From IMG/VR virus record IMGVR_UViG_3300032315_000834, positions 1 to 26,232 of that record: a DNA stretch of 26,232 bases, one strand, 5' to 3'. Shown here in pieces: positions 1-24,435 of this stretch; the stretch's first letter is position 1; each line of letters starts with the position of its first letter. Below the pieces are notes generated by a model. That model was not told the DNA's origin. It searched no databases and saw nothing but the letters and a program-made list of their open reading frames with translations. A program made the position numbers and the translations under genes. The DNA is from a virus.

Positions 1-254
1 CTCATAGGTTTTGTATTTTCATAAAATTACAAAACTTTCTGAGATTTCCAAATTTTCTTCTCTATATTTCTATAGAGTTCAGACTATATCATCACCTTAT
101 TTCTAAGGGCCCTGTGCTTCCACTCACTTGAGTGTACGTCTTTCGACTAGTCGTTGAACCTTCCTATTTCTAGGCTCGGCTGCTGATTGTCTTCACCTTT
201 AAGTGGTCAGATTTTCCAGCAATTCTCAGGGTTTTAAATCTCCATGATTAATTT
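1..254 (-). ncRNA. Group I self-splicing intron in the RNR gene (5' part, runs off the window)
   Basis: The minus strand here carries the core elements of a group I intron in order. P (GAATTGCTGGAAAATC) lies at 210-225, Q (GACAATCAGCAGCCGAG) at about 175-191, R (GGTTCAACGACTAGTC) at 145-160 and S (GATGATATAGTC) at 82-93. A P9 hairpin follows at 60-77. P1 can be drawn: exon bases AATCTC at 261-256 pair with GAGATT at 242-237, and U255 wobbles with G243. This puts the 5' splice site after 255, interrupting the codon after C-N-L. A further A/T-rich hairpin (GTTTTGTA/TACAAAAC) occupies about 9-36. No endonuclease ORF is visible. The 3' splice site and exon 2 lie beyond position 1. The assignment as a group I intron is secure; the subtype is not determined. 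Confidence 0.88.
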
Positions 255-1227
255 AGAGATTACAGAATTGAAATGGTCTCAATGCAATCTCACAACAAGG
301 ATTAGTACCCCATTCAATATTGTTAGTCCAATATATTCCAGGTTCCCCACTATTACTAAGTTCTATCCTCTTCCAAAGGGATTTGAATTCCTCCTCAGAA
401 ATACTTCCTCTCAACAGCACAGCAGAATTATTAGCCCTTCCACGCTGCTCATTCAGTTCCCACCAATTACCATACTTACATGTGATCATTTCCTCATCAT
501 CATGGCTGAACAGAGCAATCATCGCACTTCTCCTGATGCCTCCAGAAAGCACTGAATTAGCAATATGGCAGAGTATGTCATGGCATTCCAGTGGTATAAG
601 CTTTTCTCCTTCCTGTTTCCTATCAAGAATAGCTTGTACGTGAGCTAAACATATCTTCAAAGGCTCAGGACCAGGAGCTTTACCACCTGCTGTTACAAGC
701 CTAGCACCCTTATGCCTAATGGCTCTGAAGTCAAACTTAGGCATAAAAGACCCCTCAAGATAGGCTTTCATAAGCACTTTTACAGCATCAGCCCATCCCA
801 TAATACTATCTTCAATGAGGTAGTTTCTGGATTTTCCTGGCTTTTTAATTTCAGGGAGCTGTGCTACGTGGTGCTTTTGAACAGAATATCCCACTCCTGT
901 ACCACCAAGCAACAGGAACATTGTCTCACTGAATCCATGAACACTGTCAATAGGCAAATAACAGCAGTTATATCCCCTTGCATTGTTCACTTCCATAGCT
1001 GGTCCAGCAAATTGAAGAGCTCTCATGGAAGGAAGCACTTTCTTCTGCTTGATCAGTTGTCCATTATGAAGAATAGCTTGTTCTAGCTTAGGATATTTCT
1101 TTATCATCATAGATAAATATCTATTCACTATTTCATTCCAATCTTCCCTGCGTTTTGCTTCTGGAATATACTTTGAGTATTTCGTAAACACAGTGATTTT
1201 ACTTAACGCTTCCAATCCTAAATCCAT
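255..1227 (-). CDS. nrdJ: Class II (adenosylcobalamin-dependent) ribonucleoside-triphosphate reductase, exon 1
   Basis: Reduces ribonucleotides to deoxyribonucleotides for phage DNA synthesis, using a B12-derived thiyl radical. The 324 visible codons match the monomeric Lactobacillus leichmannii-type RTPR. They include SMRALQFAGPA near residue 67, the RGYNCCYLPID segment holding the first redox cysteine, the GGTGVGYSVQ loop, SVLSGGIRRSA, NSGEPGIYW and the active-site N-P-C-C-E-I near the end. The second residue after the radical-site cysteine is Glu, as in the family. The frame then hits a stop at 253-255, but a group I intron begins at 254, so the gene continues outside the window. The exon ends one base into the codon after Leu, predicted to be Ser. 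It is transcribed just after a terminator (1249-1288) with an A/T-rich leader. Class II enzymes need no separate small subunit, which fits the absence of nrdB here. Confidence 0.9.
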
Positions 1228-4528: not shown

Positions 4529-5196
4529 GACTTTAATGTGTGTTTAAATGGTTCACCTTCAATGTTTTGCACAAGATGTAACATCTGTTGTGCTATCTCC
4601 CGTATTTCCAACTGAGCTTCTTCACTATTCCTCAATTTAAGGAAATTTGCAAAACTCCTCATGTTAAACATTACATCTGCCTGTATTTGGGAGTTGTATG
4701 TTTTAAAGAACCTTGCACTTTCCTTTGCCCTTTTTCTGCCAAGAACTGGTGTTAATTGTTCTAATGATTTGTGATACAATTTATTACCCAATTCAGTGTA
4801 TAGCTCAAGAGCATGATGCAAATCCATATATTCTTCTTGTGGATAATTTAATAGATTTTTTACTCCACAATCATTTCCGATTCTAACTTCCCACCAATCT
4901 TTAGGTAGATAGAATTTATCCTCTTTCAGTTCCTTATATCTGGCACTCTCAGCATTCAATGATGAAATCCTGTGCTTCAGGAGATGAATATGAGAGGCAA
5001 TATCGCAGTTCACTAGGAAATGTACGCTACCCTTTTCAAAAGGAGTTTCATGTCCTTCTTTCCAAAGCCTGTCAATCAGAGCAGGAATCCTGTTCCTTTT
5101 CTCTTCTGTCAATTCTCTGGATGTGGAAGTCCATGCACTACATGCTATGGTTTCATCATTTCCATAATGTCCTAATAAGATGACACTATTTTCCAT
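4513..5196 (-). CDS. thyX: Flavin-dependent thymidylate synthase ThyX
   Basis: Makes dTMP from dUMP with methylenetetrahydrofolate, FAD and NADPH. From the chosen start, MENSVILLGHYGND, the protein is 227 aa, normal for ThyX. The signature R-H-R-x-x-S-x-N-x-x-S-x-R-Y appears as K-H-R-I-S-S-L-N-A-E-S-A-R-Y around residue 75, with only the first Arg replaced by Lys. H-E-T-P-F-E upstream and the C-terminal Q-A-D-V-M-F-N-M-R-S-F segment with the substrate-binding Arg are intact. An in-frame ATG at 5256 would add 20 residues lying within the HNH gene and lacking family similarity, so 5196 is preferred; it overlaps the HNH stop by 11 bp. Together with the RNR it supplies DNA precursors. No dUTPase is seen in the window. 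Confidence 0.93.
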   Translation of the reverse strand: MENSVILLGHYGNDETIACSAWTSTSRELTEEKRNRIPALIDRLWKEGHETPFEKGSVHFLVNCDIASHIHLLKHRISSLNAESARYKELKEDKFYLPKDWWEVRIGNDCGVKNLLNYPQEEYMDLHHALELYTELGNKLYHKSLEQLTPVLGRKRAKESARFFKTYNSQIQADVMFNMRSFANFLKLRNSEEAQLEIREIAQQMLHLVQNIEGEPFKHTLKSWGTN

Positions 5197-5557
5197 TCTT
5201 CTCTTTTTGTGTTTTAACATTGTGACAGCATGAACAAAGCACTTGCAAGCCATCAATTTCTATAAACAATCTCTCAACAAATCCTGGAAGATCTTTAGCT
5301 GAATTCAAAGAACCTGCAGGAATTATATGATCAACGTTTACAGCCTTATCAGGAAACCATTTCTTGCAATGATTGCATTGGTATTCCCATTTCTGACGCT
5401 TGAGAGCACCCTTGTATGGTCTTCTTGCTTTCATTTTACATTGTGTAATAGGTTTCCAAAACCTACTCTTCTGTCGTAAAGCACTTCTTATAAAAGACCA
5501 AAAGGCTGATTCACTCATTGTGCCAGCGTTCCTTGTCTTAACTATTTTCTTTGGCAT
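5186..5557 (-). CDS. HNH endonuclease
   Basis: Predicted metal-dependent DNA nuclease of 123 aa. The C-terminal half holds the HNH fold: a zinc knuckle C-N-H-C near residue 80, the catalytic V-D-H-I-I-P, and L-Q-V-L-C-S-C-C-H-N-V-K-T-Q near the end, giving the second cysteine pair and the final His. The N-terminal half is basic and probably binds DNA. The start is placed at MPKKIVKTRN (5557). The longer frame back to 5644 would cross a perfect terminator hairpin and the end of rIIB, and adds an implausible N-terminus. No duplicated flanks or intron elements surround it, so it looks like a resident phage nuclease rather than a recent homing insertion, though homing cannot be excluded. Confidence 0.85.
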   Translation of the reverse strand: MPKKIVKTRNAGTMSESAFWSFIRSALRQKSRFWKPITQCKMKARRPYKGALKRQKWEYQCNHCKKWFPDKAVNVDHIIPAGSLNSAKDLPGFVERLFIEIDGLQVLCSCCHNVKTQKEKNGK

Positions 5558-5571
5558 AAATGTAAAATTAT

Positions 5572-5602
5572 GCAGAAGGTAGCAATATTCACTACCTTCT
5601 GC
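5572..5602 (-). terminator. Inverted repeat, probable terminator after rIIB
   Basis: A perfect 11-bp inverted repeat, GCAGAAGGTAG/CTACCTTCTGC, encloses a nine-base loop. On the minus strand it is followed by ATAATTTTACATTT. It begins 11 bp after the rIIB stop and 15 bp before the HNH start. The T-tract is imperfect, so it may be leaky or act as an RNA-processing signal. Confidence 0.7.
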
Positions 5603-5612
5603 AAATAATTTA

Positions 5613-6923
5613 TTACACCAGAGTGATCCTGTTTGAAATAACATCCTTCATGCTTTCCAAAGAACTCACAATGTTGTCAATTTCAACACTGGAGATTTTG
5701 GGAAGATTGAATTCGTATTTCTTGGCTTCCACTGCAAATCCTTCTTTCACCCTTTCAGAAAGATCATTCAACTCATTGACAGCATATTCTTCATCCAATT
5801 GAAGAAAGTCGAAGTCTTGAGAATTCATAATCTCATCAGCTTCTGAAACAGTGGTGGTCATGAAAGGAAGATACTCATAACACCTACCCTTTTCAGCACC
5901 AATACCCACAACCTTCATAGGATTGTGAAGAGTGAATACAGTGGTGTTTCCACAAAGAACATAGGGAGCTGTATGTCCTGCAAAATGCAACCCCTTCTCT
6001 GCACAATCAGCTGTAGACCAGCTGCAATCCTCAGGACGCATACTCACCACTTTACCAATCCTAATGTCAAATGTCTTGGTATAATCATCTGTGTAACGAT
6101 TGCCTTCCATATTAGGCAAATCATTGTACAAAGATGCAAGATTACCAATAACCACTCCTTTGCAAATCAAATTAGTCACCTTCTCAATGGAATACTCTCC
6201 ATCATTTTGCACTACACGGAAATTCTCAGGATTCTTCTTCCACACAGCTTTCACCTTATTGTAGGCATTACTTATGGCATCCACCAGAGCTTTATCTGTT
6301 GCACTGGTTGCCACTACATTCCTAAGACCAACGAAGAATCCCTGCTTGGTGATTTTCATTCCATTCTTAAAAAGGAAACCATACAGCTTATCAACCACTT
6401 CAGCTCTTGGATTGAGGCAGCACCACAGGAAAAACCTCTTGTGAGCTATATATTCCTCATCATCTTGCACTGCGTTGAATGGTTCATTTTCATAATGTGA
6501 AAGAATTTCACAAAACTTCTCCACCAACAGAGGAGGAAGGCTTCTGCTTATGCCTTTGAGATACACTATATTGTCATTGACAACTTCAAAGTCATCAGTG
6601 AGAGAGTTAAGCAGACCAAATCCTTTTTTCACTGATTGAACTTTTTCAATAGCATAGTCTTCTTTCATCTTTTCAACCAGTGTCTCTTGATTTGTGAGAA
6701 TGCTAATAACCTGATCTTCCGTGTAAGCATTTCTCACATCCATAAATTCCTGTTCTGAAGCATTTGATTTGCTCAGAATACTACCATCCTTAAGAATAAC
6801 AGTGATGACATCATTCACCAGCTTTACAAGTGCATAAGGATGTTCTTGTTTTACCAATGGCTCTGGTGCAGGGGCTACCACTGGACTTTCTTTCTTGCTT
6901 CTAAACCAATTAAAACTAAACAT
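5613..6923 (-). CDS. rIIB: RIIB-like protein
   Basis: Homologue of the T4 rIIB family, paired with RIIA in many large phages; its biochemical role is unsettled, with links to superinfection and lysis control. Length is 436 aa, longer than T4 RIIB. Family-like features are V-D-K-L-Y-G-F-L-F-K-N-G-M-K-I-T near residue 180, followed by G-F-F-V-G-L-R-N-V, and the C-terminal A-E-K-G-L-H-F-A-G. These match the T4 pattern RLFDFL-N-IEIT, G-YFYAYK-V and C-SRGLHV in order and spacing. The N-terminus carries a Pro/Ala-rich linker (residues 14-25). It lies downstream of rIIA, separated by a terminator and one small ORF, which preserves the rIIA-rIIB order. Confidence 0.8.
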   Translation of the reverse strand: MFSFNWFRSKKESPVVAPAPEPLVKQEHPYALVKLVNDVITVILKDGSILSKSNASEQEFMDVRNAYTEDQVISILTNQETLVEKMKEDYAIEKVQSVKKGFGLLNSLTDDFEVVNDNIVYLKGISRSLPPLLVEKFCEILSHYENEPFNAVQDDEEYIAHKRFFLWCCLNPRAEVVDKLYGFLFKNGMKITKQGFFVGLRNVVATSATDKALVDAISNAYNKVKAVWKKNPENFRVVQNDGEYSIEKVTNLICKGVVIGNLASLYNDLPNMEGNRYTDDYTKTFDIRIGKVVSMRPEDCSWSTADCAEKGLHFAGHTAPYVLCGNTTVFTLHNPMKVVGIGAEKGRCYEYLPFMTTTVSEADEIMNSQDFDFLQLDEEYAVNELNDLSERVKEGFAVEAKKYEFNLPKISSVEIDNIVSSLESMKDVISNRITLV

Positions 6924-7184: not shown

Positions 7185-9056
7185 TTAACCTTGTGAAATT
7201 TTGTAATGCGATAAATTCAGTCTGTATTTGTGATATTTGAAAAGATCACAAATTAGACGCTCTGTAGGTTTGTCTACACGGTAATGATGTTGAAACACAG
7301 CATTCAAGAAATACAGCTTTTCCAACGTCTTCTTTACATAAACATAGGTTTCTACAATACTACTATCAATCATATCAAAGGTTGTGTTATCCATTATCCT
7401 TTGTTTTGTAGCACTGGATGAATTGTTATTCAAAAACCTATCATGGTAAATAGACAATTGAATGACTTTCTCACCAAGAGATGTAGAAAAATCCCTAAGA
7501 TTATATGATCTTGAAAAAACATAGGTGTACTGGTTCATGAGCTTGTTGATGTACAATGATGTAACCATCCTTTTGTACACCTTGTTCTTCCCCTTTACAA
7601 ACTCTTCAACGTTCATAAGATTGTGAACTTTGATGCCATTGAGAACTTCGTATTGTTTTTCAGAAACTATACCAAACACTACATGTTTCTTATGGAACAG
7701 TCCATACAACTCATCCAATTGCTGCCTGTGTTCATCTTTTCCATAAACTGTTAAAAATGAACGTCTGTGGAAGTTATTCATCTGAACAACAGTGGGAACA
7801 AACTTACATGAATTATTCCCCACTGTCCTTTCAAGATCTTGAGCCATTTTAATAGTTACCTCACCATCCAGTTTTACCCTTTTGGTTTTAGCTCCACCAC
7901 CTACAACTTTTGAAACAGGCATCCTTTTCTTACTACTCACCCAAGTGGAAGGCACTGTGTTATCATCAATCACCTCAAAATCCTTAACAAACATCTTTAT
8001 CAAATTCTGCAAATCAACTATCCTTTGCCTCCACTCACTTTTTGGATATTTTTTCAATTCCAAAATGTTATAGTAAGAACTGTAAGCACCATTGTTATTT
8101 TGACTTTTAAGAGGAATCTTTGTGTCTTTTTTAATGATGTAGTAGTCAGTTCGTTGCCATTTTTCCCTCAGATAGTCTTTCTGTCTTACAGTGAGAGCAG
8201 ATGAACATATAGCCACCTTTTTATCTTTTATTACATAATAGGGAGTTATATTAGCTCTTCTTTCCTCGCTGTGAAACCTTGAATTGTAATATCTGTAAAG
8301 TCTTGAATACTCACGGAATATGAAGTCTTTAGCAAGAACTATTCTTTTAATATCTATCAGTTTCAAACCCTTTATTTTGGGTTGTGCCATTGATATGCTT
8401 GAATAGTTGTTTATTTTACTAACATCCAGTTTCAGATTATGAAAATTCACATATCTGTGATCATCTGAATAATATTCAAATACAGAACGAACATCATCTG
8501 TTTCTGTTACTGAGGCATTATACAAAGACACAAAGAAATCACTCACTTTAGCGAGCTTGTCCATAATTATCTTCTGAGTGTCCCTTGTATAACGAATGGA
8601 TTCCCTGTTTGGAGTGGGAAATATTCCATCAGAAAGATTAAACCTCAAAGCAACAGGAAAATGTACTGGACCAGAAAGTCCCACTTTTGAATAGTCTAGT
8701 TGATAATAGACATTATCCAAACATATGTGAATATAATTATTCTGTGACAATTGACTCCATTGAAAATCATCATGTCGTATGATTTTGAAGTCATTTGGTA
8801 TGCCATCAACGTCAAAGTAGACACTTTCAAAATAAGCAAGTTGCTCTTTTGTCTTTGACTTGAAAGTGTTGACATCATATGTCTTTACAGGAATAATCAT
8901 CTTCACACCATTCCTTTCAGTGGTGGGAGAGTCATGAATGAGATCTATGGTATTGCCACTTTCTCCTTCATACATGGCATATTTCCTTTCCATTCCATTC
9001 TTCCTACATACAAAATAGAAAGTGGAAGAATAAGCAAGACCTGCCTTGAATCCTAG
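7185..9056 (-). CDS. rIIA: RIIA-like GHKL ATPase, exon 2
   Basis: Second exon of the RIIA homologue, 623 codons plus stop. It begins within the GHKL G2 box: after splicing the protein reads G-M-F-G-L-G-F-K-A-G-L-A-Y-S-S-T-F, matching the RIIA pattern FGLGxKSxxAY. The open frame extends upstream of 9056 to an ATG at 9131, but that part is intron sequence (it reads through the S element and P9) and should not be counted. A central basic patch (K-R-M-P-V-S-K then K-T-K-R-V-K) and many Tyr residues mark the rest, which has no other recognised domain. The complete protein would be 744 aa. RIIA proteins are peripheral to the cell envelope in T4; the role in this phage is unknown. Confidence 0.85.
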   Translation of the reverse strand, partial: LGFKAGLAYSSTFYFVCRKNGMERKYAMYEGESGNTIDLIHDSPTTERNGVKMIIPVKTYDVNTFKSKTKEQLAYFESVYFDVDGIPNDFKIIRHDDFQWSQLSQNNYIHICLDNVYYQLDYSKVGLSGPVHFPVALRFNLSDGIFPTPNRESIRYTRDTQKIIMDKLAKVSDFFVSLYNASVTETDDVRSVFEYYSDDHRYVNFHNLKLDVSKINNYSSISMAQPKIKGLKLIDIKRIVLAKDFIFREYSRLYRYYNSRFHSEERRANITPYYVIKDKKVAICSSALTVRQKDYLREKWQRTDYYIIKKDTKIPLKSQNNNGAYSSYYNILELKKYPKSEWRQRIVDLQNLIKMFVKDFEVIDDNTVPSTWVSSKKRMPVSKVVGGGAKTKRVKLDGEVTIKMAQDLERTVGNNSCKFVPTVVQMNNFHRRSFLTVYGKDEHRQQLDELYGLFHKKHVVFGIVSEKQYEVLNGIKVHNLMNVEEFVKGKNKVYKRMVTSLYINKLMNQYTYVFSRSYNLRDFSTSLGEKVIQLSIYHDRFLNNNSSSATKQRIMDNTTFDMIDSSIVETYVYVKKTLEKLYFLNAVFQHHYRVDKPTERLICDLFKYHKYRLNLSHYKISQG

Positions 9057-10046
9057 CGATTCTGTTATCTCCAGTTTCTTGGAGTGTCGGACTATATCAT
9101 CACCCATTTCTGGGGCTGGACGCTTTTTCACTAATACACTACTATTAGTTACTTCCTGTTATTAAGCAGACTATACTGCTCAGGTAGTCTCTAAACCTTC
9201 TACAAATGTATCTGTAGCTTGGCTTTTGATTATCTTGTTAAATTCCTCAAGTTTATCATGCTTTCTTTTTAAAAAATAGTTAGCATCATTATATAAGTAG
9301 GTTAAACAATTTTTTACATCCTCAGAATTTTCAATCCATAGAATGTAGACAATCATTTTTCTCTTTCTTTCCGCTATGTAAGATTTTTTTGTAGGAAGAT
9401 GTTCAGCAATTTTTTCAAGAAATGCTTTGTCTGTAGAACAAAAAGCAAGTTTTAGTTTATATCGCTGAATATGAGGCTTTGGAATAATATAATCTCTTTT
9501 CCTCTTGTATTTATACGCAAGAGATTTTATTATTATACTACCATCACCATCCATAAATCCTCTGATAAAATGAGGAATTAAATCTTTATTTAGCTTAGGA
9601 AAGGTCATTCCTACTCTACTTTTATTTATATTGCATCCTTTTTCTAATAAAGACTGACAGAGATTATTAGATGATATTGTTATTTGAGCTTTCTTTTTCC
9701 AGTTTTTTAATATACTGGAAGGACGATGAATAGTAGAAACATTCCTTCCACCTGCTTCATTAGCAAGTCTGTCAAGAATATAACCATCTTCTTCCTGAAT
9801 TTCAATTCTCAAATACATTTGTCTGTTGTTTGGAGGACAAACAATTCCTCCATCTGCATATATAAATCCTAGTATGTACGCTTTATATTCACTATCTATT
9901 TTCTCAAAATATTCATGATTAACTTTATATTTGTATCCCATAAGTATAGTTTGTTTAGGATACAAAGATAAGAATTTAATTTAGACTTCCAAAAATTCAT
10001 CCAGTTTTCTTATAAAATTTCTTCTATAAGCGGCCTAGTTTATTTG
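9057..10046 (-). ncRNA. Group I intron (990 nt) inside rIIA
   Basis: Core elements on the minus strand are a probable P element (AATTTTTGGAAGTC, about 9984-9997), Q (AATCAAAAGCCAAGC, 9217-9231), R (GGTTTAGAGACTACC, 9183-9197) and S (GATGATATAGTCC, 9089-9101). A P9 hairpin CTCC-AAGAAACT-GGAG follows. The 5' splice site after T10047 lies in a P1 of CGGT with GCCG, with the usual U-G wobble. The last intron base is G9057, and exon 2 CTAG pairs with CTAG beside the guide sequence as P10. Splicing GGT to CTAGGATTC restores G-L-G-F. The endonuclease ORF is inserted between P and Q and its last codons form Q and R. Confidence 0.92.
9180..9965 (-). CDS. LAGLIDADG homing endonuclease encoded in the rIIA intron
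   Basis: A two-motif, single-chain LAGLIDADG enzyme of 261 aa. The first motif is Y-I-L-G-F-I-Y-A-D-G-G near residue 31 and the second is F-I-R-G-F-M-D-G-D-G-S near residue 137. Each gives a dimer-interface helix ending in the catalytic acidic residue. The protein would cut intronless rIIA alleles at or near the GHKL G2 codons and so spread the intron. It is AT-rich and Lys-rich compared with the phage genes around it, a sign of transfer. Its final 17 or so codons coincide with intron elements Q and R, so coding and ribozyme function share bases. Met9 at 9941 is an alternative start. Confidence 0.92.
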   Translation of the reverse strand: MYPKQTILMGYKYKVNHEYFEKIDSEYKAYILGFIYADGGIVCPPNNRQMYLRIEIQEEDGYILDRLANEAGGRNVSTIHRPSSILKNWKKKAQITISSNNLCQSLLEKGCNINKSRVGMTFPKLNKDLIPHFIRGFMDGDGSIIIKSLAYKYKRKRDYIIPKPHIQRYKLKLAFCSTDKAFLEKIAEHLPTKKSYIAERKRKMIVYILWIENSEDVKNCLTYLYNDANYFLKRKHDKLEEFNKIIKSQATDTFVEGLETT

Positions 10047-10409
10047 ACCGAACATTCCTAGTTCAATGTTACTGTTCCTCTTTGTGGATTTACCATATTT
10101 ACTGATGATGTTCCTTACATCATCGTCATCAAGACCAAGACCAAAGTCTTCCACAGAGAATTCATAATTACCCTGACTGTTCATCCTAAGCCTTACGACA
10201 ATAGGATCTTGAACACCTGCTCTCCTATGACTATCAAGAGCATTACTTGCCCATTCCCTGATAGTCGAACCTATAGCATCTGAATATAGGTTTTTACTTA
10301 ACATCTGCATCAGCATCTGAGCAGAATCCAAGTCTAAGGACATGCCAATACTATCATTGGTTTGACCTTCGGAGAGAACTAAAGCTTCCTTTTGTTTTTC
10401 TAAAATCAT
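10047..10409 (-). CDS. rIIA: RIIA-like GHKL ATPase, exon 1
   Basis: The first 121 codons of the RIIA homologue carry most of the GHKL ATP-binding fold. The N box is I-R-E-W-A-S-N-A-L-D (catalytic Glu and Mg-binding Asn) near residue 53. The G1 box is V-E-D-F-G-L-G-L-D near residue 90. The ATP-lid segment is G-K-S-T-K. The exon ends G-M-F-G and the intron begins immediately after the Gly codon GGT; reading on gives only Q-I-N before a stop in the intron. The chosen start, MILEKQKEALV, at 10409 lies just after the upstream stop; an ATG at 10430 would overlap that gene by 11 bp. Exons 1 and 2 join in frame. Confidence 0.88.
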
Positions 10410-10419
10410 AATTTTGCTT

Positions 10420-10704
10420 TTAAATAACACCTTTTGATTTCAATATTTCATGTGCTTCCAATAGTTTCACTGCTTCTTCATGAGCAATGTCATCAAGATT
10501 GATTTTAATTATTTTGTATGGAGTGTGATATGCATAACCTGGACGAGGACGAGATTCATTTTTATACATCATAACAGCAGTTGGATAATAAAAACGAATT
10601 GTTCCTTTTCCATATCCTGCAAATATGCCTGCATACAAACGACCTCCACCTGAAAAAGCAACAAAATCACCAACATTCAGATTTTTTGCAAAATAATTAT
10701 TCAT
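10420..10704 (-). CDS. Hypothetical small phage protein, about 94 aa
   Basis: No function recognised. Residues 1-60 look like a small beta barrel (N-V-G-D-F-V-A-F-S-G-G-G, then Y-A-G-I-F-A-G-Y-G-K-G-T-I-R-F-Y-Y), of the type seen in SH3- or Tudor-like folds. The C-terminus is helical (H-E-E-A-V-K-L-L-E-A-H-E). The start chosen, MNNYFAKNLN, overlaps the end of the UNG-like gene by 8 bp (ATGAATAA). An upstream ATG at 10728 is possible but would overlap by 32 bp. Confidence 0.65.
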   Translation of the reverse strand: MNNYFAKNLNVGDFVAFSGGGRLYAGIFAGYGKGTIRFYYPTAVMMYKNESRPRPGYAYHTPYKIIKINLDDIAHEEAVKLLEAHEILKSKGVI

Positions 10705-14299: not shown

Positions 14300-14971
14300 T
14301 TAATTATAATACTCATCAATCTTATCCACTACAATCTGAAGATTGTTAGGGATTTTAATTTCATCGAACATACCATCTGGACTCTTTGCAGGATATTTCT
14401 TATACCTGTTGGTGACAAAGTTATAACTTGCTGATCCATCCTTATTTTCTTCCACGAGAGTGTAAAGACATATTGTGAACAATCCTTCCAATGTTATCTG
14501 ATTGTCCAACATCTTGCCAGATGTCTTCATCTTATATCCCACTATCTCTCCTGCATCTTCAATAGTCTCAGGGTGAGTGAAATAGAAAACCTTCAAATCA
14601 TCCCTGAGCTTACGAGCTTCCCTGAATAGATCCACCATATCCTTTGCAAGAATGGTGAACTTTGTGAATCCCACTTCTGTTGCTTTTTCAGCCATACGAA
14701 AAGCCATCATGTAATTACTGTCTTCAATGATTACATTTTTGATGTGTTCAGCTTTTTCTGAAATGGTCTTAAGCAAACGAGTGATTTCTGTAATTTCATC
14801 CACCTCTTTGTAATTCCTGCTCTCCTGATTGTACATCTTCTCTGAGCCCTTGAAAGGAAGTTCTTTCTTGGCTACATTGATGATGTAGGTTTCTTTAGGA
14901 TCCAGGGATTTGATGGATGTTGACTTTCCAGTGCCTGTATTTCCTACAATGCCTATTAGTTTTGAACTCAT
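14300..14971 (-). CDS. Sak4-like AAA_24 recombination ATPase
   Basis: RecA-core ATPase of 223 aa, of the type that promotes single-strand annealing with SSB in phages. Walker A is G-N-T-G-T-G-K-S-T at residues 10-18, and Walker B is N-V-I-I-E-D-S near residue 79. A Q- or H-bearing strand (V-F-Y-F-T-H-P-E-T) lies near residue 128, followed by Y-K-M-K-T-S-G-K. It stands 19 bp before ssb. The 5' end is unusual: 13 codons of a second, diverged copy of this same start lie at 15932-15973 on the other side of a GIY-YIG gene. The present start appears to be a replacement that arrived with that gene. The rest of the ATPase looks complete. Confidence 0.8.
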   Translation of the reverse strand: MSSKLIGIVGNTGTGKSTSIKSLDPKETYIINVAKKELPFKGSEKMYNQESRNYKEVDEITEITRLLKTISEKAEHIKNVIIEDSNYMMAFRMAEKATEVGFTKFTILAKDMVDLFREARKLRDDLKVFYFTHPETIEDAGEIVGYKMKTSGKMLDNQITLEGLFTICLYTLVEENKDGSASYNFVTNRYKKYPAKSPDGMFDEIKIPNNLQIVVDKIDEYYN

Positions 14972-14975
14972 TTTT

Positions 14976-15875
14976 TTATTTTGTTTTATAACCGTAAACA
15001 GAGTTAGTTCTTCCTTTTAGTAAATCATAAACTGCATATATTACGCATCCTATATGAGCAGCTGCACTTTTTACACAATCAAAACTATAAACATTACCGT
15101 CTTTGTATAAAACTATATTTTGTTTTTCTAAATTAGGATTTTTAGAATTAACTATCCACTCATTTTTTATTTTTTTAGTTTTATTCAAACCTGTATAAAT
15201 AAAATCTGAAATTTTTAAAAAATCAAGTATTTCTAATTTAGTATCAAATAACATTACTTGTTTTGAAATATAATTATAAATATAAAGATGATTCTCTAAA
15301 CATAAATTAGAAGTTTTTGACACAAAAATCTTATTTATACTTTTACCAGTTTTAATTTTACTTATTATAACTTTTTTTGAAACTTGCAAATCTTCTGCTG
15401 CTAGCGTAATACTTTCGTACTTCTTAATAAAATTCCCTAATTTATCAAATGTATATATAGGAACTACTTTTTTTCTTATTTCATTATTCTTATATTTTTC
15501 TTTTAAAGTTTTACTTATTAGTTCTTTTGTAAACACTGAAACAATCTTGCTGTTAGATCCTTGTCCCCTATCTTGTAAATTAACTAAATTGAGTTTGGTT
15601 TTATATTTATCAATCAACATTTTTTCAAATAAATGTGATTCTTTCCAACCTTTTATTTCAGTTAGTTTTTTAATTTTTGGTTCAATTCCTTTTTGCAAAA
15701 GAGAATTTATCCAATTTACTTTATAAGGGGGATTTTTACCAGGAAAATATTTGTTATAATAACGAGATTTAGTAATATGTTCTATTAATCTAATATGTAA
15801 AGGTTTTCTCGTTCTTCCTATATATCTTATTTTACAAGATACAGGGTCATACAAACAATATATATTAATATTCAT
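14976..15875 (-). CDS. Free-standing GIY-YIG homing endonuclease (in the Sak4-like gene)
   Basis: GIY-YIG nuclease of 299 aa. The N-terminal catalytic domain has I-Y-C-L-Y-D-P near residue 5, I-R-Y-I-G-R-T-R near residue 16, a catalytic-type Arg/His helix (R-L-I-E-H-I) and the metal-binding Glu in H-L-F-E-K-M. The rest holds DNA-binding repeats of NUMOD1 type: one near residues 139-180 (Y-T-F-D-K-L-G-N-F-I-K-K-Y with a following helix-turn-helix) and one at the C-terminus ending V-Y-G-Y-K-T-K. The gene is far richer in A/T and Lys than its neighbours. No group I core elements flank it, so it is not in an intron. It stops 4 bp before the ATPase start, and its own ATG lies in a hairpin. Confidence 0.9.
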   Translation of the reverse strand: MNINIYCLYDPVSCKIRYIGRTRKPLHIRLIEHITKSRYYNKYFPGKNPPYKVNWINSLLQKGIEPKIKKLTEIKGWKESHLFEKMLIDKYKTKLNLVNLQDRGQGSNSKIVSVFTKELISKTLKEKYKNNEIRKKVVPIYTFDKLGNFIKKYESITLAAEDLQVSKKVIISKIKTGKSINKIFVSKTSNLCLENHLYIYNYISKQVMLFDTKLEILDFLKISDFIYTGLNKTKKIKNEWIVNSKNPNLEKQNIVLYKDGNVYSFDCVKSAAAHIGCVIYAVYDLLKGRTNSVYGYKTK

Positions 15876-15917
15876 ATAGTAAAATTATTAATTTTTTTAA
15901 TAAAATTACTATATGAA
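15871..15917 (-). promoter_or_regulatory. Hairpin covering the start codon of the GIY-YIG gene
   Basis: A perfect 12-bp inverted repeat, TTCATATAGTAA (15906-15917) with TTACTATATGAA (15871-15882), is extendable through an internal loop by TTATTAA/TTAATAA. The ATG of the endonuclease (15873-15875) is in the 3' arm, so the transcript would hide the initiation site. This resembles translational repression of T4 intron endonucleases by RNA hairpins; that role is inferred. Confidence 0.65.
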
Positions 15918-15931
15918 AAGTTAAAATATTG

Positions 15932-15973
15932 TTAATCAGTGCTTCCTACGATTCCAATTAATTTACTTGCCAT
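15932..15973 (-). pseudogene. Truncated 5' end of the original Sak4-like gene
   Basis: Thirteen codons read M-A-S-K-L-I-G-I-V-G-S-T-D then TAA. Residues 3-10 are identical to residues 3-10 of the intact ATPase at 14971 (S-K-L-I-G-I-V-G), but the codons differ at many third positions (TTA/CTA, ATT/ATA, GGA/GGC, ATC/ATT). The stump breaks inside the P-loop. It begins 5 bp after the stop of the 69-codon gene, the spacing expected for the original operon. It shares the leader AAAAACTAGAAA with ssb. Confidence 0.85.
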
Positions 15974-15978
15974 GCTTT

Positions 15979-16188
15979 CTAGTTTTTATCATCCGAAGGT
16001 ACGATGATTTCCTCTCTTTTCAAAACTTCTCTGGGTTTTTGGTTTTGCTTTTTATCGTTTGTGGCTTTCTCGTAATAGTGTTCTGCTTTTTCTTTATCAA
16101 AACTTCCTATTACATATTTACCATCTACATAAACACCATACCAAAAATCTCCAAGATTGTTTCGTTCTTTTATAAGTTCTACTATCAT
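15979..16188 (-). CDS. Hypothetical small phage protein, 69 aa
   Basis: No function recognised. The first half is strand-rich (F-W-Y-G-V-Y-V-D-G-K-Y-V-I-G-S-F) and the second half is a charged helix and tail (K-A-E-H-Y-Y-E-K, then S-D-D-K-N). The ATG overlaps the SF2 helicase stop by 4 bp. In the ancestral order it would have been followed directly by the Sak4-like ATPase. It may therefore belong functionally to the helicase-recombination module. Confidence 0.7.
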   Translation of the reverse strand: MIVELIKERNNLGDFWYGVYVDGKYVIGSFDKEKAEHYYEKATNDKKQNQKPREVLKREEIIVPSDDKN

Positions 16189-20294: not shown

Positions 20295-20773
20295 AGCTGA
20301 CGAATTATTATCTCCATGTCATGAGGAGCTGTCTGATTTCCTCCAAAATAAGGATGCAACAGATAGCCCAATGGCTTAGAAGGAACATCTACAAAAACCA
20401 AGGATTTATCAGTGATGAGAACATGATTTTGTTCACTCATAACCATTGAAAAGTCATTTGATTCTCCTATTTCCACTGATTTTATATACTTGCTCATTCT
20501 TTTACCTTTCTCATACCAATAGGCAAATATACGCATGTTTTTATTTTCCAAATCGTAATTCCAGCCAAAACGCACACTGTTGTAGTGATGCATTGTAAGT
20601 TTCCTTAATGTGAAATATCCTATCCCAAAGAGCTTGTTTATATCTCCCTGATCTTCGGGCCCTATGTCATACCTACAGAGTTCTGTGAATGTCACCCTGT
20701 ATGTCAAAATACTATTGCCTTTCAAGAGCTTGGGAAAGCTGAATGGGGCATGTGTTCCTTTTTTGATCACCAT
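20291..20773 (-). CDS. Conserved hypothetical protein, 160 aa (beta-rich)
   Basis: No established function. The protein has a strongly beta-sandwich-like pattern. Recognisable conserved pieces are D-Q-G-D-I-N-K-L-F-G-I near residue 41, H-H-Y-N-S-V-R-F-G-W near residue 61, I-F-A-Y-W-Y-E-K-G-K-R near residue 82, and the terminal L-H-P-Y-F-G-G-N-Q-T-A-P-H-D. I recall similar D-x-x-D-x-N-K-L and YFGG-x-x-x-APHD signatures in uncharacterised proteins of Bacteroidota and their phages. The start overlaps the polB stop by 7 bp, so it is translationally coupled to the polymerase. Confidence 0.7.
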   Translation of the reverse strand: MVIKKGTHAPFSFPKLLKGNSILTYRVTFTELCRYDIGPEDQGDINKLFGIGYFTLRKLTMHHYNSVRFGWNYDLENKNMRIFAYWYEKGKRMSKYIKSVEIGESNDFSMVMSEQNHVLITDKSLVFVDVPSKPLGYLLHPYFGGNQTAPHDMEIIIRQL

Positions 20774-21740
20774 AACGAAAGTTGATTGGGGTTTGTAATT
20801 ACATTTGTCTTCTTGCCTCCTGTTTCAATCTTTCTTATTATCTTCTCACATCTTTCTATGTAATAAGAATAATTGATGTTATTCATTGGATGGTCTTTTG
20901 GTAGATGATTGCACACTGTGCACATCCATTCACCAGCTTCCACTTGGCTTACAGAAGCAGCATTTGTAGTGCATTCAGGATTTTTCACCTTCAACAGCTT
21001 TTCTCCTGTGTTGGATACATAATACCTGATGAGCTTGTTATAGACAGTGGTCTCACCTGTTGTTCTATCCACTCCTTCATAATGAAAGTCTTTAGTGGAT
21101 TTCTGCCTGATTGCAAAGTCATAGATGTTTGAATGATTCTTAATAGTATCACTCACAGGCACACCATGGACATAATAGGCTTCAAGAGCCAATGGGACAA
21201 TCCTTGCAGATTTGTTCTTGTGAAGTTCAAAGTCTGTGAGGAAATCACCTTTCTTCTTGATTTCTCCATCTGTCTTTATTGCAAGATAGTCATTCACTGT
21301 TGAGAATATAATCTTCTGATAATCAGCTCTTTCAAGCTCATAACCAGTTGATTTACACCACCAGTCATTCACCTCATGCATCTTTCCAATAAGCTCTTTT
21401 CTTATTTTGATAGTGACACCATCTGTATTGGCACTTATCACCCTGATACCATTCAGTTCATATTGCTCAATAAGCATCATCAGGCTCAATTCACCTGTAA
21501 TAGTGGTGAACATGGTGAGCTGTCTGTCATATATCCAGCTTTGTACATCAGAGCTTTTACCATAAACACTGTTAACAGCAAGCTTCAAAGCACCTACAAT
21601 ACCCTTTATCTTCTTATCTTTCTTGGCTAAAGGCTTGAGTTCCAATCTCTTCTCAAACATCTTCTTATATCCAGATAGAAACTCCTTTCCCAAATGTGCA
21701 GGATAACGCTTGTTATTGATGATGGTGGCAGGATAATATG
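20767..21740 (-). CDS. polB: Family B DNA polymerase, exon 2 (polymerase domain)
   Basis: Second exon of the replicative polymerase. After splicing it completes motif A as D-V-S-S-Y-Y-P-A. Motif B is K-L-A-V-N-S-V-Y-G-K. Motif C is A-N-T-D-G-V-T, where the first carboxylate of the usual DTDS is Asn but the catalytic second Asp remains. K-D-F-H-Y-E-G-V-D-R belongs to the thumb region. A cysteine pair C-T-V-C lies near the C-terminus. The last residues are P-N-Q-L-S-L-W, which resembles the bacterial sliding-clamp-binding motif Q-L-x-L-F. The frame runs open back to 21765, but bases 21741-21765 are intron. The joined gene encodes 652 aa. A neighbouring 160-aa gene overlaps its stop. Confidence 0.9.
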
Positions 21741-22701
21741 CATTCCAGCCTCTGTAACCTTTCAATTACAGCTGGACTATATCATCATTTAACTTTAATT
21801 CTTTTTTCCAAACAAACCCATAAATTGAAGGTTTGTGACCTGAACAAACTGAATATATTTGCTGCCATTTATAAGAAGGGTTTTGTTCTGTTATTTCTTT
21901 TACAGAATTCCATCTTCTTATAAATTTACCATCTTTACTATACTGATTAATATAATATTTAGTTGTAGCTTCTGAAACTTTCTTTGCCATTTCCTTAGTA
22001 GCCTCTGGATTATCTTTCCAATAAGTGTGACTTACTTTTTGTCTCTCTTTTGGATCAGAAAATCTTTTAATTTGAGCTTCGCTAAGCTTTTTTCTTGTTT
22101 CTTGAGAAACAATACAACCTGTTTCAGAATCTTCTCTAAAATTATATCCTTTATCTCTATCAGTACATTTAAAGATCTTTTGCCAATATAGCTCTCTGTT
22201 TGCTAATTGATCAAGTGTTGTATATTCTAAAACAAAATAGTGAAAATTGTCTCTTCCATATTTGTGCCAAGCATTTATAAGATGATCGTTTTCTTCATCT
22301 CTTCTTTTTTTATTCAACTGAGTTATATGTTGTTTAACTCTTGAATAAATGCATTTGGCTTTTCCAATATAGACTTTACCATTCACTTTATTTGCTATAC
22401 AATATATTCCACTTTGGTTTAAGTGTTCTTTTCTATTCAATTTCATGTTACAAACATATGTAATTACATGGATAGAACCAAGACACTTATGTTAATTAAT
22501 TGTTAAATGTTCCCTGTTTAGTCTCTGAACCTTGATCTATTTCACTATAGACCCTTGGCTGCGGATTGTCCAATCTTAACCTTTTTTACCATACCTGAGT
22601 AGTTACTTCAGCCACTATATGTATTTCTACTATAGCTTGGTAGATTAATCTCTAAGGAGGTTCCCGTCAATTTAAGGAATTTTAGTTTCGCCATATTGTT
22701 A
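21741..22701 (-). ncRNA. Group I intron (961 nt) inside polB motif A
   Basis: Core elements on the minus strand are P (AAATTGACGGGAACCTCC, 22656-22673), Q (GGACAATCCGCAGCCAAGG, about 22554-22572), R (GGTTCAGAGACTAAAC, 22516-22531) and S (GATGATATAGTCC, 21774-21786). A stem of CCAGC and GCTGG follows as P9. P1 pairs exon GTTTCG with CGAAAC, and U22702 wobbles with G. P10 pairs exon 2 CATATT with AATATG next to the guide sequence. The terminal G is 21741. The joined exons keep the frame, one base of a Ser codon from exon 1 and two from exon 2. The endonuclease ORF lies between R and S. Confidence 0.95.
21766..22446 (-). CDS. GIY-YIG homing endonuclease encoded in the polB intron
   Basis: A 226-aa intron-encoded endonuclease. 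The GIY-YIG motif is S-G-I-Y-C-I-A-N near residue 12 with K-V-Y-I-G-K-A near residue 24. The catalytic helix Arg (C-I-Y-S-R-V-K-Q-H) and the Glu of N-R-E-L-Y-W-Q-K follow. A NUMOD3-type segment (S-Q-E-T-R-K-K-L-S-E-A-Q) is near residue 114, and a NUMOD1-type DNA-binding module (Q-Y-S-K-D-G-K-F-I-R-R-W) is near residue 166, ending G-F-V-W-K. Its final codons (K-L-N-D-D-I-V-Q-L) read through the S element of the ribozyme, so coding and RNA structure share bases. It would cut intronless polB at motif A. It is AT-rich compared with polB. Confidence 0.93.
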   Translation of the reverse strand: MKLNRKEHLNQSGIYCIANKVNGKVYIGKAKCIYSRVKQHITQLNKKRRDEENDHLINAWHKYGRDNFHYFVLEYTTLDQLANRELYWQKIFKCTDRDKGYNFREDSETGCIVSQETRKKLSEAQIKRFSDPKERQKVSHTYWKDNPEATKEMAKKVSEATTKYYINQYSKDGKFIRRWNSVKEITEQNPSYKWQQIYSVCSGHKPSIYGFVWKKELKLNDDIVQL

Positions 22702-23686
22702 ACGAAACATCCCAATCAATTATCAGCTCATCTTCATCAGCTTCAAATATCTTAGGCTTGTTCTCTGTATGCAATCCACCCTTCATGAAAGAATATACAT
22801 TATCATAGAAATGCAGTTCTTTCTTGAAGTCATCATTCATCCCAAGCTTTTCTTTCCTTATTTCATTAAGAAATTCCTGGAGTTCTTTTGTCTGGAATTT
22901 GACATAAGGGGCTATACAGTTGCTTACATTCACTGTCTTCCTGAAGAATCCTTTCTTAGGAAGCTTGGAATACTCCATGTTCTTCTCCTCACAATAGTAT
23001 TTCTTGATCATTTCATCACCAATCTTACTATCTGAATAGTTCAAGCATGGAATACCAAACTCAGCTTCTATGTCCTCCCTAAGCTCAATTTGATTGTTTC
23101 CTTTATATAAAGGATGGTCTGTTTCACCTATTGTCACTAAATAAAACTGATAAGTGGCACTTACATCATTTATACAATACTGAAGAGTTGTTTGTATTTC
23201 CTCCTGTGTCAGATTTTCTTTCAGGAAGTGAATGGGCATTTCTTCAATGTTCTCAAGATCCATTTCAAATTCAAGCCTTTTGAGACTCACCATTCTGTTT
23301 TTATTTGAAAAATGATGTACTTCAAATAAATCTATAATTTTAAAACTTAATTGGAAATCTCTATATTTAGGAAGAATACCATAATTAGAATCATGAATAG
23401 TATCACTTGCACAAATTTGTATTATTTTACATATTTCAAGTCTTGATAGTTCATTCCAATTATCATGTTCATTTATTATAAATTGAAGAACTTGGCTATC
23501 AAACCTTAATCCATTATAAAAAACAAAATAGTGATCATTTTTTTCCTCAAAATATCTTACCATTTCATCTATGGTATTTTCCCAAGCACTGCATTGAAAA
23601 TATTTCCATTCTTTAAGTTGAGGATCATAGCACACACACAAAAAATATTCTTGCATTGTTTCTATGTCTGCAATAATCACTTGCAT
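22702..23686 (-). CDS. polB: Family B DNA polymerase, exon 1 (3'-5' exonuclease domain)
   Basis: The first 328 codons plus one base of the replicative polymerase. All three proofreading motifs are present: Exo I A-D-I-E-T near residue 6, Exo II F-Y-N-G-L-R-F-D near residue 56, and Exo III Y-C-I-N-D near residue 170. The enzyme should therefore proofread. The exon ends I-I-D-W-D-V-S within polymerase motif A; reading on gives L-T-I-W-R-N and a stop in the intron. The ATG overlaps the end of a free-standing GIY-YIG gene by 10 bp. Roughly the first 130 codons (23290-23686) are visibly richer in A/T than the rest, which suggests that this end was replaced along with the homing gene. Confidence 0.92.
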
Positions 23687-24435
23687 TTTGTAATTTTTAA
23701 TGTTCTCAAATAAGTGCCTCTAGAAGCAGATCCTGATATTGAGCTTATGCTAACTTTTAATATTTCACATAGTTCTCTAGAACTAGCTTTTCCTATATAT
23801 TTTCCAAAACAATCATGTATTTGGTAATTAGCACCTTTACATTCTTTTATTTTAGAAAAAATATCTTCCCAATAAGCTTTAACTGAAGCAACTGATACAT
23901 TGACATCTACTAAAATATACTTAGTCAATAAAGAGTCTATTAAATTTTTCTTATTGAATAGTATATTCATTTTTCTATGAATGTTAGGAGCTTCTGTATT
24001 AAAATGTTTTCCACATTTATAAAAATCTGTAAAATCTTTATAAAAGTCACCATAAATAGTGTAGCATTTAATTGCTCGTTTTTCTGCTCCAGCTGACATT
24101 TTTATTTTTGTTTCTTTACTTACAGCCTGCTTTCCATAAGGAGAGGTGGGATCTATGTTATATCCATACTCTCTATCGTGTGAATTTAATAAATTACACC
24201 AATAGTTTTCTTGTGAAAAAATAAATTTTTCTTCACATTCCTCTAAAATGTCAAATAAAAACCCATCTCTATTATAGAAATTATATGCAGACTGTAAGTG
24301 ATTGTTGCAATGATTTCCTTTTTTCAACATTAATTTGTGCATGTTTAATCTAGCAACAATATTTCTAGAAGCTCCTATATAAACTTTGCCATTAATTATG
24401 TTTTCAATAATATAAACTCCTGATAACTTTTTCAT
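23677..24435 (-). CDS. Free-standing GIY-YIG homing endonuclease upstream of polB
   Basis: A 252-aa GIY-YIG nuclease. The catalytic domain starts at the N-terminus (S-G-V-Y-I-I-E-N near residue 5, K-V-Y-I-G-A-S near residue 17, then the Arg helix I-V-A-R-L-N-M-H) and has the metal-binding Glu in F-S-Q-E-N-Y-W. A conserved G-Y-N-I-D-P turn closes it. A NUMOD3-like T-K-I-K-M-S-A-G-A segment follows. The C-terminal region is helical and Lys-rich and ends in a helix-turn-helix-like S-S-R-E-L-C-E-I-L-K-V-S-I-S-S-I-S-G-S. No group I elements flank it, so it is free-standing. Its stop lies inside the polB start region, so it has moved in exactly at the polymerase gene boundary. Confidence 0.9.
   Translation of the reverse strand: MKKLSGVYIIENIINGKVYIGASRNIVARLNMHKLMLKKGNHCNNHLQSAYNFYNRDGFLFDILEECEEKFIFSQENYWCNLLNSHDREYGYNIDPTSPYGKQAVSKETKIKMSAGAEKRAIKCYTIYGDFYKDFTDFYKCGKHFNTEAPNIHRKMNILFNKKNLIDSLLTKYILVDVNVSVASVKAYWEDIFSKIKECKGANYQIHDCFGKYIGKASSRELCEILKVSISSISGSASRGTYLRTLKITKCK

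Follow-up and report, generated by a model that had tools for sequence, protein, structure and literature searches.

A GIY-YIG endonuclease gene inserted in a phage Sak4-like ATPase gene, together with a synonymously recoded 5' end of its probable target

The viral record IMGVR_UViG_3300032315_000834 (26,232 bases, analysed over its whole length and referred to below as the window) carries a GIY-YIG-type endonuclease gene that splits a Sak4-like ATPase gene (sak4) at its Walker A codons and leaves a 13-codon stump of it. We interpret this insert as a homing cassette, composed of the endonuclease gene and a synonymously recoded 5' end of the target gene, and from sequence comparison we assign this interpretation a probability of roughly 0.7. 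All genes of interest lie on the minus strand of the window.

The stump (15973..15932) reads ATG GCA AGT AAA TTA ATT GGA ATC GTA GGA AGC ACT GAT TAA (MASKLIGIVGSTD*) and represents the original ATPase 5' end, its first 37 nucleotides (nt) being of the resident type. Its ATG lies 5 nt past the stop codon of an open reading frame (ORF) of 69 amino acids (aa) and unknown function (16188..15979). The end of the stump is followed after 56 nt by the endonuclease ORF (15875..14976, 299 aa), whose stop codon is followed after 4 nt by a complete ATPase gene (14971..14300, 223 aa) starting with MSSKLIGIVGNTGTGKS and harboring an intact Walker A motif (GNTGTGKS). Residues 3-10 of the stump and of the downstream ATPase are identical, whereas 13 of the first 37 nt differ. 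The original prediction, made from the letters alone, had described this arrangement of stump, GIY-YIG gene and intact ATPase, and its coordinates, the 5-nt spacing, the break in Walker A and the synonymous recoding are all confirmed. The identity that it proposed for the ATPase also holds, as the downstream product belongs to PHROG 2872, “Sak4-like ssDNA annealing protein” (E=1e-54). The recoded 5' end, which restores the reading frame, occupies 14971..14909 (codons 1-21 by analogy with locus L084, the boundary in the window being approximate, as the perfect block shared with L002 stops at nt 56 of the ATPase gene) and is probably a cleavage-resistant allele; the body of the Sak4-like ATPase (PHROG 2872) follows at 14908..14300. 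An assembly artefact was excluded, since the same structure is present in two contigs from other metagenomes, L003 and L002, the former with zero mismatches to the window across the 8.2 kb compared, and L055 and L084 contain independent homologous versions of it.

The recoding can be followed in a pair of occupied and empty alleles. Loci L099, L136, L137 and L127 are near-identical to L084 and have no insert at the P-loop site; the upstream sequences of L084 and L099 are the same at 717 of 729 nt (98%). The stump of L084 is identical over 38 nt to the ATPase start of L099 and L136, and L099 then continues into a normal P-loop, as expected if the stump is the original start of the gene. Uninserted relatives of L084 with the downstream-type start, which would have spoken against that view, were not found, its closest uninserted relatives being stump-type. 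In the ATPase gene that follows the endonuclease of L084, 14 of the 20 codons from 2 to 21 differ from L099, all synonymously (18 nt), as do 16 of 20 with respect to L136, again all synonymously, and two serine codons are swapped between the AGY and TCN sets. The remaining 215 codons (22-236) hold 10 synonymous and 2 nonsynonymous differences from L099, with only one difference in codons 22-120 (5' codons against the rest, Fisher p = 5e-12). In control pairs of uninserted alleles whose gene bodies diverge by less than 5%, the mean share of differing first codons is 4% (maximum 15%). As codon changes pile up in codons 2-21 and are few elsewhere and in uninserted pairs, the recoded tract of L084 is sharply bounded and leaves the protein untouched. 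It is confined to about 63 nt and spans both sides of the insertion point (nt 38), reaching 25 nt past the repeat shared by stump and copy, which is what would be expected of a recognition site spanning that point. The endonuclease is thus inserted along with a diverged replacement of one gene end, and the displaced native end is kept as a remnant that matches uninserted relatives in L084 and is nearest to the uninserted allele L009 in the window. In one of the empty alleles, L127, a different group-I-like insert that contains a GIY-YIG gene breaks sak4 near codon 151 (L127:1400-2390), and a few synonymous changes lie directly downstream of it (co-conversion).

About 320 sak4 loci were fetched, comprising 127 distinct ATPase alleles at the stage of the allele comparison, before the last scan. 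The insert is present in the window lineage (window, L002 and L003), in L055 and in L084, the endonucleases of the last two being 62% and 58% identical to that of the window. The insertion points of these three lineages lie within 1-3 nt of one P-loop position, and the stump is broken at the fourth P-loop codon in all of them (after ACT-G, ACA-GG and TCG-GG, respectively). They also have in common the left end of the insert (TTAACAA..TTTAAC, starting within a few nt), an endonuclease stop codon that lies 4 nt before the new ATPase start or overlaps it by 4 nt (ATGA), and a new start in which other codons specify the same residues, exactly or nearly so (for stump and copy, L084 has MSSKLIAIVGPSG and L055 has MSSKLIGIVGQTG). 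The recoded starts of the three cassettes are 8, 12 and 13 of 37 nt away from the resident ones. A search with a three-member profile recovered no cassettes beyond those already known. We also observed that L053, which has no insert and a gene body 3% from that of L055, has much of the recoded start of L055; it may be a donor-type or a post-loss allele.

A transfer-like footprint is visible in the window lineage. An alignment of 8.6 kb between the window and L002 has 141 mismatches or gaps (98.4% identity), and its longest stretch free of differences (1,147 nt, positions -1091 to +55 relative to the ATPase ATG) covers exactly the stump, the endonuclease gene and the recoded start, with 20 differences within the 111 nt directly upstream of it. 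Such a stretch would be the expected trace of a recent transfer of the cassette as one unit with short co-converted flanks. Together with the recurrence in three lineages, it lends support to the original proposal that the endonuclease and the recoded start form a single cassette. That proposal named a nucleotide-level match of the stump to an uninserted gene as support, and L084 provides such a match. In the window lineage, the stump is closer to its nearest uninserted allele (4 of 37 nt from L009) than to its own downstream copy (13 of 37). The downstream start is closest to L095, L181, L195 and L246 (5-6 of 37 nt; AGT-TCA starts), and its median distance to the uninserted alleles is 13 of 37.

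Starts of the recoded type (AGY-TCN-AAR-CTN) occur naturally elsewhere in the ATPase family, and the same four loci show similar codon choices. A foreign, diverged phage is favoured over divergence in place as the source of the recoded start, because such codon choices are natural in the family and because the enzyme would immediately cut an exact copy. Of the uninserted alleles, L095 has the sak4 start that comes nearest to the recoded ones of the window and L084 (3 of the first 30 nt differ in each case), and the L095 phage harbors a P-loop intron endonuclease in DnaB. We regard L095 as a candidate donor type; its start is no proof of self-protection, since close relatives of L095 share it. 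No clear link was found between AGY-TCN starts and endonucleases of the family elsewhere in the contig.

The endonuclease of the window matches NUMOD1 in Pfam, with a sub-threshold I-HmuI NUMOD-like domain, both being DNA-binding repeats, while the GIY-YIG profile gave no match at E <= 0.01. An AlphaFold2 model was built from six relatives (mean predicted local distance difference test score, pLDDT, of 72), and its top Foldseek match is the catalytic domain of I-TevI (1mk0; probability 1.00, template modelling score 0.70 by target, E = 0.015 only); I-HmuI is also among the top matches. Y18-I-G, R29 and E84 are invariant across the six relatives. The GIY-YIG label of the original prediction is therefore right as judged from the predicted fold, rather than from Pfam, with its conserved arginine and glutamate. 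Homologues of the endonuclease were found neither in the annotated phage collection nor in the genome contigs searched, and the annotated phage collection contained no DNA-level relative. In the window lineage, a strong AT-rich hairpin covers the start codon of the endonuclease (15917..15871; -17.4 kcal/mol, z = -5.75; not shown for L055 or L084). By analogy with T4 endonucleases, whose translational control is known (PMC2988022), it could possibly control translation here as well.

The Walker A codons of other genes, namely those coding for DnaB (L086, L094 and L095) and for a MoxR-like ATPase (L088 and L096), also harbor inserts with endonucleases of this family, which are more distant (about 48-53% identity in the N-terminal ~170 residues); a 42% identical relative (L087) occupies another site of DnaB. 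The Rfam group I intron model (RF00028) matches L087, L088 and L096. By eye, L094 and L095 look alike in their 3' parts, yet Rfam makes no call for them, nor for L086. Walker A is re-formed when the introns are removed at the obvious junctions, as in L095 (ACT GGG T/...G/CA GGT AAA ACT, slashes marking the junctions). The left end of the window insert (15936..15876, ATTAACAATATTTTAAC...) is like those of the L084 and L055 inserts, and the left ends of the sak4 inserts (GATTAACAATATTTTAA, GGTTAACAATAATTTAA) resemble the 5' ends of the P-loop group I introns (L094 GGATTAACAATTATTTAA), a similarity matched by 2 of 5000 shuffles and mostly owed to L094. In the sak4 inserts, the endonuclease extends into a longer C-terminal part and then directly into the new ATPase start. 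The inserts of the window, L055 and L084 gave no RF00028 match, even at relaxed E-values, and no group II match. The simplest history would be that the intronless sak4 cassette arose from an endonuclease that cut P-loops and resided in an intron, and that the recoded start replaced splicing.

Further elements of this kind were observed in these contigs. One dnaB gene contains two endonucleases of the same family (L094:5025-6834), one after the first codons (also in L045) and one in the Walker A intron. The sak4 gene of the L087 phage (L257/L259, same contig) is split between about codons 86 and 92, and a further group I intron match (L087:8864-9096, 70.7 bits) lies near it. Moreover, L021 and L040 have a GIY-YIG-like ORF of 184-185 aa about 230-790 nt upstream of sak4, at the position that the helicase gene's 3' part occupies in relatives.

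The following mechanism is the most likely one for the cassette. The enzyme, probably descended from endonucleases of Walker A group I introns, would cut the sak4 P-loop DNA of a co-infecting phage, and repair from a cassette-bearing genome would copy the endonuclease gene and the recoded start into the break. Recombination on the right would take place just inside the gene (around codon 21 in L084 and nt 55 in the window/L002 pair). On the left it would fall near the cut, so that the first ~37 nt of the recipient would stay behind as a dead stump, which could supply left-hand homology for a further round of homing. The recoded start would keep the ATPase protein nearly or wholly the same and escape the recognition sequence of the enzyme, so the cassette would neither kill the gene nor cut itself. 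Recoding of the DNA may thus do for the sak4 cassette what RNA splicing does for its intron-borne relatives. On a broader view, to which we give only slightly better than even odds, a family of endonucleases directed at P-loop DNA lives in essential genes in two ways, as spliced group I introns in the DnaB and MoxR-like genes and in sak4 as an intronless cassette whose synonymously recoded gene start resists cleavage, the latter being a natural home-and-rescue drive and a route to the loss of the ribozyme from a mobile intron.

Several observations weigh against the homing cassette interpretation. No donor of the recoded start was recovered among the uninserted alleles, the nearest of which differ at 5-6 of 37 nt, and the insert is present in only three lineages among the 127 distinct ATPase alleles. 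The window lineage has no close uninserted relative (the nearest gene body, that of L004, is 18.7% different), and its recoded tract is for this reason less cleanly bounded. Its own excess of synonymous change at the 5' end is only modest (13 of 18 in codons 2-21 and 27 of 77 in codons 22-110 with respect to L004, p = 0.005; p = 0.02 to 0.15 against other relatives), and that of L055 is weaker still (7 of 20 against L053, p = 0.006; 9 of 20 against L079, p = 0.11). Finally, the suggested intron ancestry is based on a short left end, the insertion position and protein similarity.

Alternatively, the 5' end could have been duplicated at insertion and the downstream copy could have diverged in place, through self-cleavage or selection against deletion between direct repeats, with nothing foreign involved. 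The protein does fit its lineage, as L084 keeps SKLIAIVGPSG (with its alanine and proline-serine) and L055 keeps SKLIGIVGQTG, and the lack of any uninserted allele close to the recoded start points the same way. Yet an exact copy would have been a full target at the moment of insertion, the recoding in L084 extends past the duplicated part, and there was little time for its 18 synonymous changes, since the rest of the gene is nearly identical to L099. The natural occurrence of recoded-type alleles elsewhere in the family also argues against this scenario, and we consider it unlikely, at somewhat less than one chance in five. A simple duplication was rejected for L084, where the changes are limited to 63 nt and extend past the repeat.

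Slightly less probable still is that the homing gene is of the ordinary free-standing kind and that the recoded 5' end merely hitch-hikes with it, as co-converted DNA of a diverged donor with no protective role. Co-conversion of flanks is normal in homing (PMC2988022), and the group-I-like intron elsewhere in the sak4 gene of L127 also has a few synonymous changes next to it. The recoded tract is however not optional, because the gene would be destroyed without a replacement start; it spans both sides of the insertion point, which fits a recognition site, and all three cassettes carry starts that are far from the resident one. A last alternative, in which the stump acts as 5' exon to a self-splicing or trans-splicing intron, the ATPase is translated from a spliced message and the second start is irrelevant, could draw on the P-loop group I introns that carry related endonucleases and similar left ends, but is very improbable, as none of the three inserts has a group I or II match, the 4 nt or 4-nt overlap between the endonuclease stop and the second ATG leave no room for a ribozyme, and the second ATPase gene is full-length and includes a Walker A motif. 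Accordingly, a group I intron was rejected for the sak4 insert on the lack of both an Rfam match and space for a core, and no ribozyme able to join the stump to the P-loop was detected, a splicing event that would have contradicted the original prediction.

At least five homing endonuclease genes are present in the window. A group I intron (60-295, minus strand; RF00028, 79.7 bits) lies at the end of a ribonucleotide reductase-like ORF (1227..253). A second GIY-YIG gene (22446..21766) and, next to it, a group I intron match of 44.8 bits (under the curated score) lie in an insert (21766-22741, minus strand) that splits a DNA polymerase-like gene (23686..22682 and 21765..20767). A LAGLIDADG gene (9965..9180) lies between the halves of a large GHKL-type ATPase gene (10430..10035 and 9131..7185) and is followed downstream by an intron-like sequence, GATGATATAGTCCGACA, for which Rfam makes no call; the insert (9131-10035, minus strand) is likely a diverged group I intron. 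In addition, a free-standing GIY-YIG gene (23677-24435, minus strand; Pfam E=2e-11) and a free-standing HNH-type gene (5186-5644, minus strand; sub-threshold match) were identified.

The occupied and empty pair documents, at the DNA level and in phages, a selfish nuclease that brings with it a recoded segment of the gene it targets, which probably serves as its antidote. If the cleavage resistance is true, the cassette would provide a natural precedent for home-and-rescue drives, explain how an endonuclease can live in an essential-looking gene without splicing, and outline a path from a mobile intron to an intronless element. The ~60 recoded nucleotides may trace the recognition site of the enzyme, and for annotators short N-terminal “stumps” next to homing genes mark invaded target sites. 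No phage case of an endonuclease-carried gene start was found in the open-access papers searched, which cover only part of the literature.

Known systems share parts of this organization. T4 SegF, SegG and MobE are free-standing and home without an intron from beside their targets (PMC2988022); as here, they are phage GIY-YIG or HNH genes that spread by cutting co-infecting phage with co-conversion of flanks, but they sit between genes near the target, whereas the sak4 enzyme lies inside its target gene, brings a new start and leaves a stump. Mobile group I introns with I-TevI-like endonucleases share the related GIY-YIG enzyme, the site in conserved codons and a similar left end (L094, L095 and L096), but the sak4 inserts have no ribozyme, and recoded DNA takes the place of splicing in restoring the reading frame. 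The engineered home-and-rescue gene drive HomeR (PMC7968924) similarly combines a nuclease targeting an essential gene with a recoded, immune rescue piece. The analogy is one of logic only, HomeR being human-made, CRISPR-based and used in insects, and the sak4 cassette natural and found in phages. Tremella mitochondrial introns with N-terminal duplications (PMC7315562) also carry a homologue of a host-gene segment towards the N-terminal side, with partial gene replacement; they are described as introns, for the most part no longer able to splice, and differ in their larger segments, protein-level divergence and mitochondrial location. The closest parallel is that of the mobile ORFs of fungal mitochondria, with gene hybrids in Allomyces atp6 and Glomus atp6, atp9, cox2 and nad3 (PMC3630166). 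In Glomus atp6, for example, the two copies have 63.5% nucleotide identity, and the C-terminal piece differs only synonymously from that of a close relative (PMC3630166). In both the fungal mitochondrial and the Tremella reports the carried piece is treated as horizontally acquired (PMC3630166, PMC7315562). Like the sak4 cassette, the fungal mobile ORFs have an endonuclease in a gene that carries a foreign, diverged gene piece, a hybrid gene and a native remnant. They differ in carrying a 3' (carboxy-terminal) piece in mitochondrial DNA, mostly with LAGLIDADG enzymes, whereas here a GIY-YIG enzyme in a phage record comes with a 5' end, a Walker A target and intron-borne relatives.
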